Shown here piece after piece: positions 38,711 through 40,967 of a stretch of 64,000 nucleotides of DNA. The stretch's first letter is position 1. Each line of letters starts with the position of its first letter. Location of the stretch: NCBI GenBank assembly GCA_934307695.1, contig CAKRCS010000010.1, positions 1-64,000 on the forward strand, given 5' to 3'. Source of the stretch: an uncultured Agathobacter sp. (lineage in GTDB: Bacteria > Bacillota > Clostridia > Lachnospirales > Lachnospiraceae). Under the pieces are notes generated by a model. The model made no database searches, was not told the origin of the DNA, and saw only the letters and a list, made by a program, of their open reading frames with translations. The position numbers were made by a program, and so were the translations under genes.

Positions 38711-39304
38711 TCATACCATTACCTCCACATACATCATAACTGCATCCCTTACTCCAAGCCTAACTGCGTATTCAATCAATCTTGTCAGATTCTTTTCCTT
38801 GGAGGCCATATATTCTTTGATTGCAGTCTGATATAGCTGGATTTCATATTTTTTTCTGTCCTTGATCAAATCACAAATACATCTTTCCTTGTCATATACC
38901 TTAACCATATTTCCACTACTTGATGGAACCTCGCAAATTCCCATATCTATAATTTCTGCGTTGGCATAATGGACTTCTTTGTTTTTATTTTTGATATGCG
39001 AAGCGTTGTAACCAACAGGAACTGTAAAACAAATATGACTGTACTCTCTGTCAGTCAGACCATGTAGATACAAAGCAGTTTCTCCTGAGTAGATAATATT
39101 CTTGTTCCGCTCCTGAAGTACAAACAGCTCATCCAGCCACACATCCTCTAAAATGTAGATTCCATGCGCCACTTTTTCCATGCCATGCTCTCTGATGTAT
39201 TTTGAAACAGATGGCTTTGATACACCTGACTCAACTGCTTTAGATGTAATCAAATATCCGTTATCTTTTTCAATTAAGGCATCCAAAATATCAGATGTTG
39301 CCAT
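38711..39304 (-). CDS. AbiEi-like antitoxin-type protein, no toxin partner
   Basis: The 197-residue cytosolic protein has an N-terminal winged helix-turn-helix (about residues 1-50, SKAVESGVSKPSVSKYIREH). The AbiEi pattern follows: GIYILEDVWLDELFVLQERN, SGETALYLHGLTDREY and ICDLIKDRKK. In type IV toxin-antitoxin systems this protein represses its operon and counters the nucleotidyltransferase toxin AbiEii. No AbiEii-like gene is next to it on either side, so it is an orphan. It is monocistronic with an AAGGAG site. Confidence 0.85.
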   Translation of the reverse strand: MATSDILDALIEKDNGYLITSKAVESGVSKPSVSKYIREHGMEKVAHGIYILEDVWLDELFVLQERNKNIIYSGETALYLHGLTDREYSHICFTVPVGYNASHIKNKNKEVHYANAEIIDMGICEVPSSSGNMVKVYDKERCICDLIKDRKKYEIQLYQTAIKEYMASKEKNLTRLIEYAVRLGVRDAVMMYVEVMV

Positions 39305-39439: not shown

Positions 39440-39985
39440 TTATAATACCAGCCTCATGTATACAAGCTCCTGCGCGCCGGAATACTTCGAGATAAATCCA
39501 AGCGGATTGCGCCCATACTCCACGAACCCAATGTTTTTGTACATATTGACCGCTCTCTCGTTATCTGCGACAACCTCCAGCTCCAGCTGCTTGTAGCCAG
39601 CATTTTTGGCGCATTGCACACAGGCGTTCATGATCTTTTTGCCGATGCCAAGTCCCCAGTATGCCTTTACGACATCAACGCCAAATTCCGCGCGGTGTCT
39701 GACTTTGTATTTATTGCCAACGGCAAAAACGCTTGCTGTGGCGACGATTTTGTCGTTTATGACAGCTAACAGCATTACTTCGTTATCGCTCTCGGCTACT
39801 TTCTGGAGATATTCGCTCTCGCCTTTTGCATCGAATTTATGCTCGTCCGGATAGGAACGCAGGTAATCCGACTCGCTGTGTGTCACCACGAACAGCTCCG
39901 ACATTGCAGGTCCATCTTCATAAACGGCATTTCGTATTATGCAGTCTTGTCCGTTTTTCAGGACTACTTTTTCTTTATATTGCAT
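39440..39985 (-). CDS. GNAT family N-acetyltransferase
   Basis: The 181-residue acetyltransferase has an N-terminal region IRNAVYEDGPAMSELF and core strand GVDVVKAYWGLGIGKKIMNA, which contains the acetyl-CoA pyrophosphate loop (Gly-Leu-Gly-Ile-Gly-Lys). NMYKNIGFVEYGRNPLGF follows. It resembles the RimI/PhnO-like branch that includes resistance acetyltransferases. It lies 22 bp downstream of the methyltransferase and shares its leader-controlled transcript, so it may belong to the same inducible response. The substrate is unknown. Confidence 0.88.
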   Translation of the reverse strand: MQYKEKVVLKNGQDCIIRNAVYEDGPAMSELFVVTHSESDYLRSYPDEHKFDAKGESEYLQKVAESDNEVMLLAVINDKIVATASVFAVGNKYKVRHRAEFGVDVVKAYWGLGIGKKIMNACVQCAKNAGYKQLELEVVADNERAVNMYKNIGFVEYGRNPLGFISKYSGAQELVYMRLVL

Positions 39986-40007: not shown

Positions 40008-40772
40008 CTATTTTTGCTTGCGCAGCACCAATAAAAAGCGATGGATCTTTCCTTCCACGCAACCGTTTTGCTCTAAAATCTGTTGTGCATACAGCAATCT
40101 GTCTTTGCATTTATCCACAGAAAAGTCGGGAAATTCCCACTCTATAATATGCGCAAACCAGACAAGCGCACCTATATCGAAAAATTTGATCGGTCTGAAG
40201 CATTCCTGCGCATCCAGGATTTCAAAACCGGCACCGCAAAACTGTCTGCTTACAATGTCCAGATACTGTTCCGGAAATGGAAGCTCCGTTTTACCTAAGA
40301 GAAGTTCCACCAATTCACGGTCATTCTCAGCGCCTACCTGTTCGGTGATAAAAATTCCTCCGCCTTTCAAAACGCGATGTATTTCTTTGACATTAAAATC
40401 CCCATGACGATTGATGACAATGTCAAATTCAGAATCACTAAATGGCAACGAATCTCTTCCGTCGCCCGCACGGAAATCAATCCCAAGCGGCAGTAAGGTC
40501 TCTCTGCATAACTGAACATTTGGGGGATAGGCTTCGGTTGCACATGTCTTTTCATAAGGATGGCAGAGTGATAACAGAAATTCGCCGCCACCTGTGTCGA
40601 TGTCCAGCAATTTCATTTCCGGCTTTAGGTAATCCTGTATGATATGCTGATAGCTCCAAGGCAAGTCCGATTCCTCCGTATATCTCCCTTCGATATGCGA
40701 AAAGTCCCACCCGTGGATGTGTGCAATGCTTTCTTCTCTTTTCCAAATATTTATAAGTTCATTTTCTTTCAT
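40008..40772 (-). CDS. Class I SAM-dependent methyltransferase behind a leader peptide
   Basis: The start is placed at MKENELINIWKREES because AAAAAGGAGTAGC precedes it. The 254-residue protein has motif I LLDIDTGGGEFLLSLC (about residues 54-69) for S-adenosylmethionine, FRAGDGRDSLPFSDSEFDIV (motifs II-III) and HRVLKGGGIFITEQ. It has no zinc finger, so it is not a classic RlmA. The 160-nt upstream region encodes a 12-residue peptide overlapping a large hairpin, a design known from antibiotic-inducible genes. The substrate could be rRNA or a small molecule; this is not determined. Confidence 0.85.
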   Translation of the reverse strand: MKENELINIWKREESIAHIHGWDFSHIEGRYTEESDLPWSYQHIIQDYLKPEMKLLDIDTGGGEFLLSLCHPYEKTCATEAYPPNVQLCRETLLPLGIDFRAGDGRDSLPFSDSEFDIVINRHGDFNVKEIHRVLKGGGIFITEQVGAENDRELVELLLGKTELPFPEQYLDIVSRQFCGAGFEILDAQECFRPIKFFDIGALVWFAHIIEWEFPDFSVDKCKDRLLYAQQILEQNGCVEGKIHRFLLVLRKQK

Positions 40773-40816
40773 CGTAGCTACTCCTTTTTGAATGTTATTT
40801 TTATACATCAATTAAA

Positions 40817-40885
40817 GGTGCAGCCAACCTGACAACATCATAAAATAACCTCGATACAACCTGTTGCCAGATTTACAACTGCACC
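40817..40885 (-). promoter_or_regulatory. Attenuator-like hairpin overlapping the leader ORF
   Basis: On the minus strand GGTGCAG (40885-40879, inside leader codons 9-11) pairs with CTGCACC (40823-40817). An inner stem GGCAACA / TGTTGTC stacks within it. The segment CTACTC at 40891-40886 could instead pair with GAGTAG in the methyltransferase ribosome site (40783-40778). Confidence 0.65.
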
Positions 40886-40911
40886 GAGTAGTTACCTCGA
40901 ATAAGCCTCAT
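40873..40911 (-). CDS. Putative 12-residue regulatory leader peptide
   Basis: The minus strand encodes MRLIRGNYSVQL followed by TAA, with an AAAGGTGGTGA ribosome site upstream and a promoter whose start would lie about 20 nt before the ATG. The stop codon lies in the loop of the large hairpin. The Met-Arg-Leu opening equals the minimal macrolide-dependent arrest motif known from the ErmD leader. Its placement ahead of a methyltransferase makes drug-dependent stalling plausible, but that is inference. Confidence 0.62.
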   Translation of the reverse strand: MRLIRGNYSVQL

Positions 40912-40938
40912 CTTGTGAGTTCACCACCTTTCAAATTA

Positions 40939-40967
40939 TCTATATCAATATAGCATTTCTCCGCCAA
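40939..40967 (-). promoter_or_regulatory. Promoter for the leader peptide-methyltransferase-GNAT unit
   Basis: The minus strand reads TTGGCG, 17-bp spacer, TATAGA. It is 28 bp upstream of the leader ATG, leaving about 160 nt of transcribed leader before the methyltransferase. Confidence 0.65.

Follow-up and report, generated by a model that had tools for sequence, protein, structure and literature searches.

A probable ribosome-mediated attenuator with a short leader reading frame upstream of methyltransferase, exporter and radical-SAM genes in Bacillota

Architecture of the locus

The window analysed here, a stretch of 64,000 nucleotides from a contig of an uncultured Agathobacter sp., carries on its minus strand a short leader ORF, a nested hairpin and a ribosome site, followed by the genes for a class I SAM-dependent methyltransferase and a GNAT acetyltransferase (Table 1). 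The leader ORF, MRLIRGNYSVQL, has 12 codons, opens with an ATG at 40911 and ends with a TAA stop at 40875-40873. It lies 139 nt upstream of the methyltransferase start and overlaps the nested hairpin (40885-40817), whose outer arms are GGTGCAGTT (40885-40877) and GGCTGCACC (40825-40817) and whose inner stem is formed by TGGCAACA (40869-40862) and TGTTGTCA (40837-40830). The ribosome site AGGAGTAG comes 3' of this hairpin, ahead of the methyltransferase gene. The 145 nt from 40914 to 40770 fold with -39.5 kcal/mol (z = -3.33; 1 of 200 shuffles folds as well), and the minimum-energy fold includes pairing between CTACTC in the leader and GAGTAG in the ribosome site. A covariance model of relatives, which has the window as one of its 33 rows, matches it with 129.8 bits (E 6.8e-22); the matches span 40770-40914 and, with another run, 40798-40914.

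The original prediction had placed a leader peptide and attenuator between 40778 and 40967, preceded by a promoter and controlling a methyltransferase-acetyltransferase pair. Direct reading of the minus strand recovers the leader ORF with the ribosome-site-like GGTGG (40928-40924), the hairpin GGTGCAG/CTGCACC with the inner GGCAACA/TGTTGTC, and the methyltransferase gene (40772-40008) followed by the GNAT gene (39985-39440). The interval itself misses the final bases before the gene, the modelled element running from 40914 to about 40774, and at the leader no promoter is recovered by a consensus scan that requires agreement at 9 of 12 positions.

Table 1. Features of the leader element and of the adjoining genes in the window.
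Feature	Position	Strand	Basis
Whole putative attenuator element: leader ORF, switch helices, ribosome site	40774..40914	-	covariance-model matches
GGTGG, putative ribosome site of the leader ORF	40924..40928	-	sequence
Leader ORF MRLIRGNYSVQL and stop	40873..40911	-	sequence; in-frame start in relatives
Conserved CGA, leader codon 5, predicted A-site codon of the inducing stall	40897..40899	-	codon counts, folding model
Segment 1, CTCGGTGCAGTT, partner of segment 2 or segment 4	40877..40888	-	covariation
Inner stem, 5' arm	40862..40869	-	covariation
Segment 2, TGTATCGAG, pairs with segment 1 in the alternative helix	40850..40858	-	covariation
Inner stem, 3' arm	40830..40837	-	covariation
Segment 4, GGCTGCACC, pairs with segment 1 or the ribosome site (anti-SD)	40817..40825	-	covariation, co-change with the ribosome site
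Methyltransferase ribosome site AGGAGTAGCTAC, like segment 1	40774..40785	-	sequence; duplex energy
Class I SAM-dependent methyltransferase, 254 aa	40008..40772	-	Pfam Methyltransf_11, AlphaFold2 model, structure matches
GNAT acetyltransferase, adjoining, not a conserved partner	39440..39985	-	tblastn in 80 loci

The methyltransferase is assigned to Pfam Methyltransf_11 (42.6 bits), and its AlphaFold2 model has a pLDDT of 93.5. A clue to the substrate was sought in Pfam, in NCBIfam, in the PDB by sequence and profile and by structure comparison, and these gave the class I fold only; no NCBIfam equivalog exceeds its cutoff. Against the 23S rRNA G745 methyltransferase model, used as a test for the RlmA/TlrB family, the protein scores 19.5 bits where the cutoff is 303, and PADLOC gives only a partial mad2 match (33.1 bits). 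The GNAT gene recurs in locus L001 (96% identical, from nearly the same organism) and, as weak tblastn matches, in two more of 80 homologous loci with flanks of up to 3 kb, so that the proposed methyltransferase-acetyltransferase pair is not a conserved arrangement. Further along the window, positions 38711-39304 of the minus strand hold an AbiEi-type antitoxin-like gene (PADLOC AbiEi, E 2.2e-61).

Conservation of the element and of its reading frame

A single genome scan found 104 relatives of the methyltransferase, and 80 loci were kept. The original prediction had called for a search for the short ORF and hairpin upstream of homologous methyltransferases. Covariance models place the element there, in the same orientation, in 47 of the 80 loci, many of which were themselves model rows and many of which are also overlapped by weaker antisense matches. 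The outcome is mixed, for the other 33 have no covariance-model match upstream. Some of these are contigs with little upstream sequence (L030, L072), and among the 33 are also the close relatives L002 (87% identical) and L004 (77%), in which ORFs of 503 and 107 codons, respectively, stop 31 and 56 bases before the matched methyltransferase start. A Fusobacterium relative (63.6%) is likewise without the element by model, and phage records contain no relative at E 1e-5. Leaders ending in R-[GDI]-N-Y-S-V-Q or similar are found ahead of many methyltransferase homologues. At three loci (L124 6115-7119, L142 1501-1736 and L128) the element is followed by an interrupted or remnant methyltransferase gene, suggesting gene loss in some lineages.

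A pattern requiring C[G/C]A was used to choose 62 elements. In 61 of these a start codon is present in frame 2-6 codons upstream of the CGA, compared with 1 and 3 in the other two frames, and the model alignment gives an in-frame leader start in 133 of 136 elements. This conservation of frame suggests that the short upstream ORF is translated, as an attenuator of this kind would require. The conserved place is occupied by CGA in 113 of the 136 model-located elements and otherwise by codons for Leu (9), Pro (3) or Cys (2), by UGA (2) or by seven single others; it is codon 5 in 74 elements, codon 4 in 33, codon 3 in 16 and codon 6 in 10, with no start found in 3. CGA is the rarest arginine codon in 14 genes of the window (11 of 296). 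The codon that precedes this place, most often one for Lys, Ile or Met, varies freely at the third base only (1.25/0.66/0.09 bits), and the leader stop follows 7 to 21 codons past the CGA. In L012 and L051, UGA replaces CGA, leaving an ORF of 3-4 residues while the RNA is kept; in these variants the later leader codons therefore act only as RNA, and the leader codons NYSVQL seem to be mostly RNA-driven.

Two mutually exclusive helices

When 42 elements covering three gene types are aligned with MAFFT, helix 1:4 and the inner stem form in 98.9% of 713 cells, with two-sided change at 12 of 17 pairs. Among 96 model matches, whose alignment was fitted to the 1:4 structure, 97.3% of 1607 cells are paired and 204 cells are changed on both sides, compared with 56.3 in shuffles. 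Helix 1:2, which was built into none of the covariance models, is paired in 98.4% of 378 cells in the smaller alignment, with two-sided change at 4 of 9 pairs, and in 98.4% of 830 cells in the larger one, with 64 two-sided cells compared with 19.8 in shuffles; in both alignments none of 500 shuffles reaches its paired or its two-sided cells. By two other measures helix 1:2 does not rise above shuffles, namely the pair types among the 42 elements (422 of 500 as high) and the number of pairs with two-sided change among the 96 matches (103 of 500 as high). Sliding the partners by 1-3 columns drops the pairing of both helices in both alignments to 15-57%. The shuffle numbers are not probabilities, because the rows are related and many of them are model rows, and the 96-match helix statistics include the four weakest rows of alignment A6, antisense matches of a near-palindromic element that were dropped from the 136-, 109- and 123-element sets. 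Since both helices need segment 1, 1:2 and 1:4 cannot coexist, and the covariation thus supports the pair of mutually exclusive helices that ribosome-mediated translational attenuators require.

Pairing of segment 4 with the ribosome site

In sequence, the ribosome site is similar to segment 1. For much of the methyltransferase type it reads GGAGTAG or GGAGCAGTT; in the ABC type it reads GGAGTACAGTT and segment 1 reads AGTACAGTT. In the window, the duplex between the segment 4 region and the ribosome-site region amounts to -10.8 kcal/mol. Over the 123 of 136 elements that form the co-change permutation set, segment 4 pairs with its own ribosome site at a mean of -7.63 kcal/mol compared with -5.84 kcal/mol after permutation (0 of 2000 as low), whereas the leader codons pair with the ribosome site at a mean of -4.07 compared with -3.94 (318 of 2000 as low) and do not co-vary with it. 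Segment 4 is therefore taken as the anti-SD, because its own pairs beat the permuted ones while those of the leader codons do not. Within its own type the segment 4 duplex reaches -9.8 kcal/mol in the ABC-like group, which comprises ten elements including one of the radical-SAM type, and -7.4 kcal/mol in the methyltransferase type, compared with about -4.3 kcal/mol across types; among the methyltransferase elements alone, segment 4 pairs no more strongly with its own ribosome site than with a swapped one (mean rank 0.50). In silico, the ribosome site is sequestered in one of the two states, as an attenuator requires, although the closed form that the window adopts in its minimum-energy fold relies on pairing between leader and ribosome site instead of segment 4.

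Pairing of the leader codons with the ribosome site was also considered as the OFF state. It is good in clade 1 (160 of 188 cells, compared with 56 of 168 and 70 of 167 when slid, in 21 elements), and was dropped for want of co-variation across the set; the CTACTC:GAGTAG pairing named in the original prediction is present in the window's minimum-energy fold. After the 1:4 hairpin a T run is found in 4 of 74 elements (L031, L128, L145 and L148), the window not being among them, and L080 also looks T-run-like by eye. L145 (1501-1621, minus strand), of the MFS type, has eight T after helix 1:4.

Predicted position of the stall

The position at which a stalled ribosome would favour expression was modelled by masking the nucleotides under the ribosome and calculating the energy needed to open the ribosome site. 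Of 58 elements, drawn from a set of 65 leaders by leaving out those with long inserts or no clear ribosome site, 48 reach the minimum of this cost when the A site holds the CGA place and the footprint extends 15 nt downstream; the number is 47 for 16 nt and 40 for 14 nt, and with footprints of 12-13 or 17 nt the minimum moves by one codon. The shuffled control, with one shuffle for each of the 58 elements, gives a flat curve of about 2.0 throughout. A broader set holds 109 of the 136 elements, 13 without a recognised start and 14 with long inserts or short upstream sequence being left out; here the minimum falls at the CGA place in 80, and the median opening cost is 1.2 kcal/mol at this place, 3.1 without a ribosome and 4.6 two codons further on. 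The cost at the CGA place is below that two codons on in 106 of the 109 and below that without a ribosome in 88. Among distant loci (L155-L202), the minimum lies at the CGA place in 20 of 37, and the window's own optimum lies one codon earlier (2.4 kcal/mol at a P-site offset of -6, 5.4 at -3).

Distribution, downstream genes and mobile setting

At E 0.01, the family of genome G002 gave model matches in 30 of 397 genomes, its class in 11 of 391 and its phylum in 7 of 398, counts that include two matches judged false, both inside genes (L135 in the class sample and L140 in the phylum sample). At E 0.001, two further families gave matches in 5 of 32 and in 3 of 22 genomes, the order of G472 in 39 of 225 and the order of G1022 in 18 of 295. 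The samples partly overlap: a sample with 5 of 33 repeats the family with 5 of 32, the unclear genome G652 is counted in the class sample and in both of these family samples, and another sample consists of its centre genome only. Ten genomes picked via methyltransferase loci gave matches in eight. L133 is without a clear gene; L133, L135 and L140 are absent from alignments A1, A3 and A5, and L133 is present in A6.

Downstream of the elements at L081-L116, tblastn identifies the methyltransferase in 23 of 36 loci, of which L081-L088 repeat loci of the first scan, and the remaining 13 carry 10 ABC exporters and 3 radical-SAM proteins as judged from ORFs, L104 and L108 being assigned from the ORF start only. 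The 48 loci L155-L202, three of which repeat earlier ones, comprise 33 with the methyltransferase, 11 with an ABC exporter and 4 without assignment. An MFS exporter follows the element in L132, L137, L145 and L147, and a second radical-SAM family in L130. Pfam backs the methyltransferase, ABC, MFS and radical-SAM labels of those proteins that were compared with it. Within the flanking sequence inspected, a modifying enzyme or an exporter stands singly, each behind its own element. The radical-SAM/SPASM proteins of L115 and L116 are nearest to the YydG peptide-epimerase family, yet far below its cutoff. As judged from sequence matches, the element is common to many Clostridia and some lactobacilli, ahead of methyltransferase, pump and radical-SAM genes.

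Some copies lie in a mobile setting. Genome G242 carries two copies of element and methyltransferase, in L117 (7540-8346 and 8627-10102) and in L118; the protein of the L117 copy is 89% identical to that of the window, a MobA/MobL relaxase adjoins it and an integrase lies nearby. The ABC copy of L122 adjoins a relaxase and an integrase that are 41% and 69% identical, respectively, to those of L117, and this relaxase and integrase have no match in the window or in the other loci compared, except L107, which coincides with L122. The element also precedes a methyltransferase gene (39.5 bits) on a conjugative Lactiplantibacillus plasmid; 23 plasmid records share this stretch, of which this one was run through the covariance model, and 22 of the 23 are typed as mobilizable or conjugative.

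Proposed mechanism and alternatives

Based on the conserved frame, the exclusive helices, the co-change of segment 4, the optimum of the folding model and the recurrence before unrelated genes, we hypothesize that the element is probably a ribosome-mediated translational attenuator switched by an early stall in the leader. Segment 1, within the leader ORF, would have two alternative partners, segment 2 shortly after it and the more distal segment 4. When no stall occurs, the ribosome would clear the leader, helix 1:2 would form and segment 4 would cover the ribosome site (OFF). With codon 4 or 5, usually the rare CGA, in the A site, the footprint of an early stalled ribosome would stop just before GGTGCAGTT; the ribosome would then block 1:2, 1:4 would form and the ribosome site would be released (ON). 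The stall is presumed to occur, and its inducer would be a translation inhibitor that halts ribosomes within the first codons, such as a lincosamide-, pleuromutilin- or streptogramin A-like or similar compound, against which the downstream genes would confer resistance. The attenuator layout of a short leader ORF ahead of a methyltransferase gene, proposed originally for the window, is thus supported in silico and recurs in many relatives; the original observation is partly confirmed and its interpretation partly supported.

Part of this evidence could be read differently. An amino-acid or tRNA attenuator would use the rare CGA, a codon read by an inosine-bearing tRNA-Arg, to sense the supply of tRNA-Arg or arginine, and the prevalence of a codon otherwise so seldom used would fit; a single such codon is present, though, 23 of 136 elements have another in its place, and arginine or tRNA genes are not among the targets (methyltransferase, exporters, radical SAM), which makes this reading unlikely. 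Leaders of the MRLR or +X+ type, as in ErmD and MefA, arrest on macrolides at the last residue of R/K-X-R/K. The original prediction saw such an ErmD-like, macrolide-specific arrest in Met-Arg-Leu of the window leader (MRLIR), which would free the ribosome site via the leader-codon pairing present in the window's minimum-energy fold and in clade 1. Some relatives with MRIR or MRMR fit +X+, and the tlrB leader of Bacillus subtilis, MIIQFIRYR (PMC6851288), shares QFIR with the leaders of L016 and L023. Met-Arg-Leu itself is not conserved, other relatives reading MQMIR, MQFIR, MIFIR, MYLMR, MNKR, MTKR, MRKR and so on; the window's R-L-I-R lacks the +X+ motif, and Arg or Lys lies two residues before the conserved Arg in 15 of 65 leaders, a set that includes three mislocated by the pattern (L131, L134 and L136, perhaps also among the 58 footprint elements), so that +X+ is no feature of the family. 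As the UGA variants translate 3-4 residues only and the leader complementarity to the SD does not co-vary over 123 elements, this mechanism is improbable.

That the ORF is incidental to a riboswitch or other RNA-only element would agree with the pairing that constrains much of the leader's 3' half, and is made quite improbable by the in-frame starts (61 of 62, against 1 and 3), the codon-like variation before CGA and the lack of an Rfam match. Transcription attenuation, with 1:4 as an intrinsic terminator and 1:2 as antiterminator, would suit exclusive helices of the classic scheme and the T runs of L145, L148, L031 and L128, where 1:4 would become a terminator, against its ON role. The other 70 of 74 elements have no such T run, as a cplR-type terminator would demand, and the co-change of segment 4 and ribosome site would have no role, which renders this scheme very unlikely. 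Finally, the short ORF might encode a RiPP-like peptide substrate that is modified by the methyltransferase or radical-SAM enzyme and secreted by the exporter, a reading to which the affinity of two tested radical-SAM proteins with YydG-type peptide epimerases, below cutoff, would lend itself; with UGA at the CGA place in two elements, a stop 7 to 21 codons after CGA, and a separate element for modifying enzyme and for exporter in the flanks seen, it is extremely unlikely.

Returning to the translational attenuator, a broader proposal is possible and is made tentatively: a modular, partly mobile cassette would sense the position of the ribosome, through an early stall at a rare CGA or even at a stop codon, and not the peptide, and the genes of at least five unrelated families in Bacillota would form an unlinked, so far unrecognised protection regulon against one class of ribosome-targeting compounds. 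Attenuators betray what a gene defends against. Present both on chromosomes and on plasmids of Lactobacillaceae, the element offers a sequence handle for possible hidden inducible protection genes of gut and food bacteria, while a shared element makes the inducer of these genes directly testable with one reporter. If true, a position-only, rare-codon sensor would separate stall position from recognition of the nascent peptide in a natural system, and the regulon would contain a methyltransferase, pumps and radical-SAM enzymes of new function.

Relation to known systems

In erm-type attenuators such as those of ermC and ermB, a short leader ORF and exclusive helices keep the ribosome site hidden until a ribosome stalls in the leader. 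The present element is like them in leader ORF, exclusive helices and, in silico, hidden ribosome site. In contrast to ermC and ermB, its stall is predicted at codon 3/4 whatever the later peptide, its ribosome site resembles the leader segment, it precedes several unrelated genes, and the product is not of the Erm family.

The other systems are compared here as far as the available parts of the cited articles describe them. In Bacillus subtilis, tlrB (yxjB) encodes a methyltransferase controlled by translation attenuation with the leader MIIQFIRYR, at whose C-terminal RYR the ribosome stalls, and additionally by transcription attenuation with NusG pausing (PMC6851288). The element likewise places a methyltransferase behind a leader peptide, partly with the shared QFIR (MQFIR in L016 and L023), whereas its predicted stall is early and not C-terminal and the window's methyltransferase is far below the cutoff of the G745 model. 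The cplR leader, which controls an ABC-F gene, combines a very early stall at the uORF MR[I/M] with a hairpin that acts as a terminator and sequesters the ribosome site; for PLSA and nucleoside antibiotics, early stalls that require little of the sequence have been proposed at such uORFs (PMC10201436). The very early stall predicted here is like that of cplR and related ARE-ABCF leaders, whereas 70 of 74 elements lack a T run and the targets belong to families other than ABC-F. Because such stalls have been proposed for these drugs, the PLSA/nucleoside class may, by analogy and with low certainty, be the likeliest inducer. The uORFC-6-1 motif before hflX and HflXr with rli80 also join a conserved uORF to RNA structure ahead of a ribosome-rescue or resistance gene; their leaders carry an Arg-Leu-Arg motif and serve one main target gene, with transcription attenuation shown for hflXr (PMC8632094, PMC6310831), whereas the element has several target genes and no conserved Arg-Leu-Arg. 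The smtA motif, a Soda Lake RNA of more than 350 nt from Thioalkalivibrio only, is likewise a structured RNA before a class I SAM methyltransferase gene, and differs from the element by having no leader ORF described in the section on it (PMC11109978, section 14).

Rfam gives only a tRNA at gathering score in the window and, with E up to 0.5 allowed for six other loci, a single miRNA match that lies outside the element; the main texts of the open-licence literature searched, as far as they were available, contain no description of the element. Its kind is known, then, while the family, the positional sensor and the spread over unrelated genes appear to be new.
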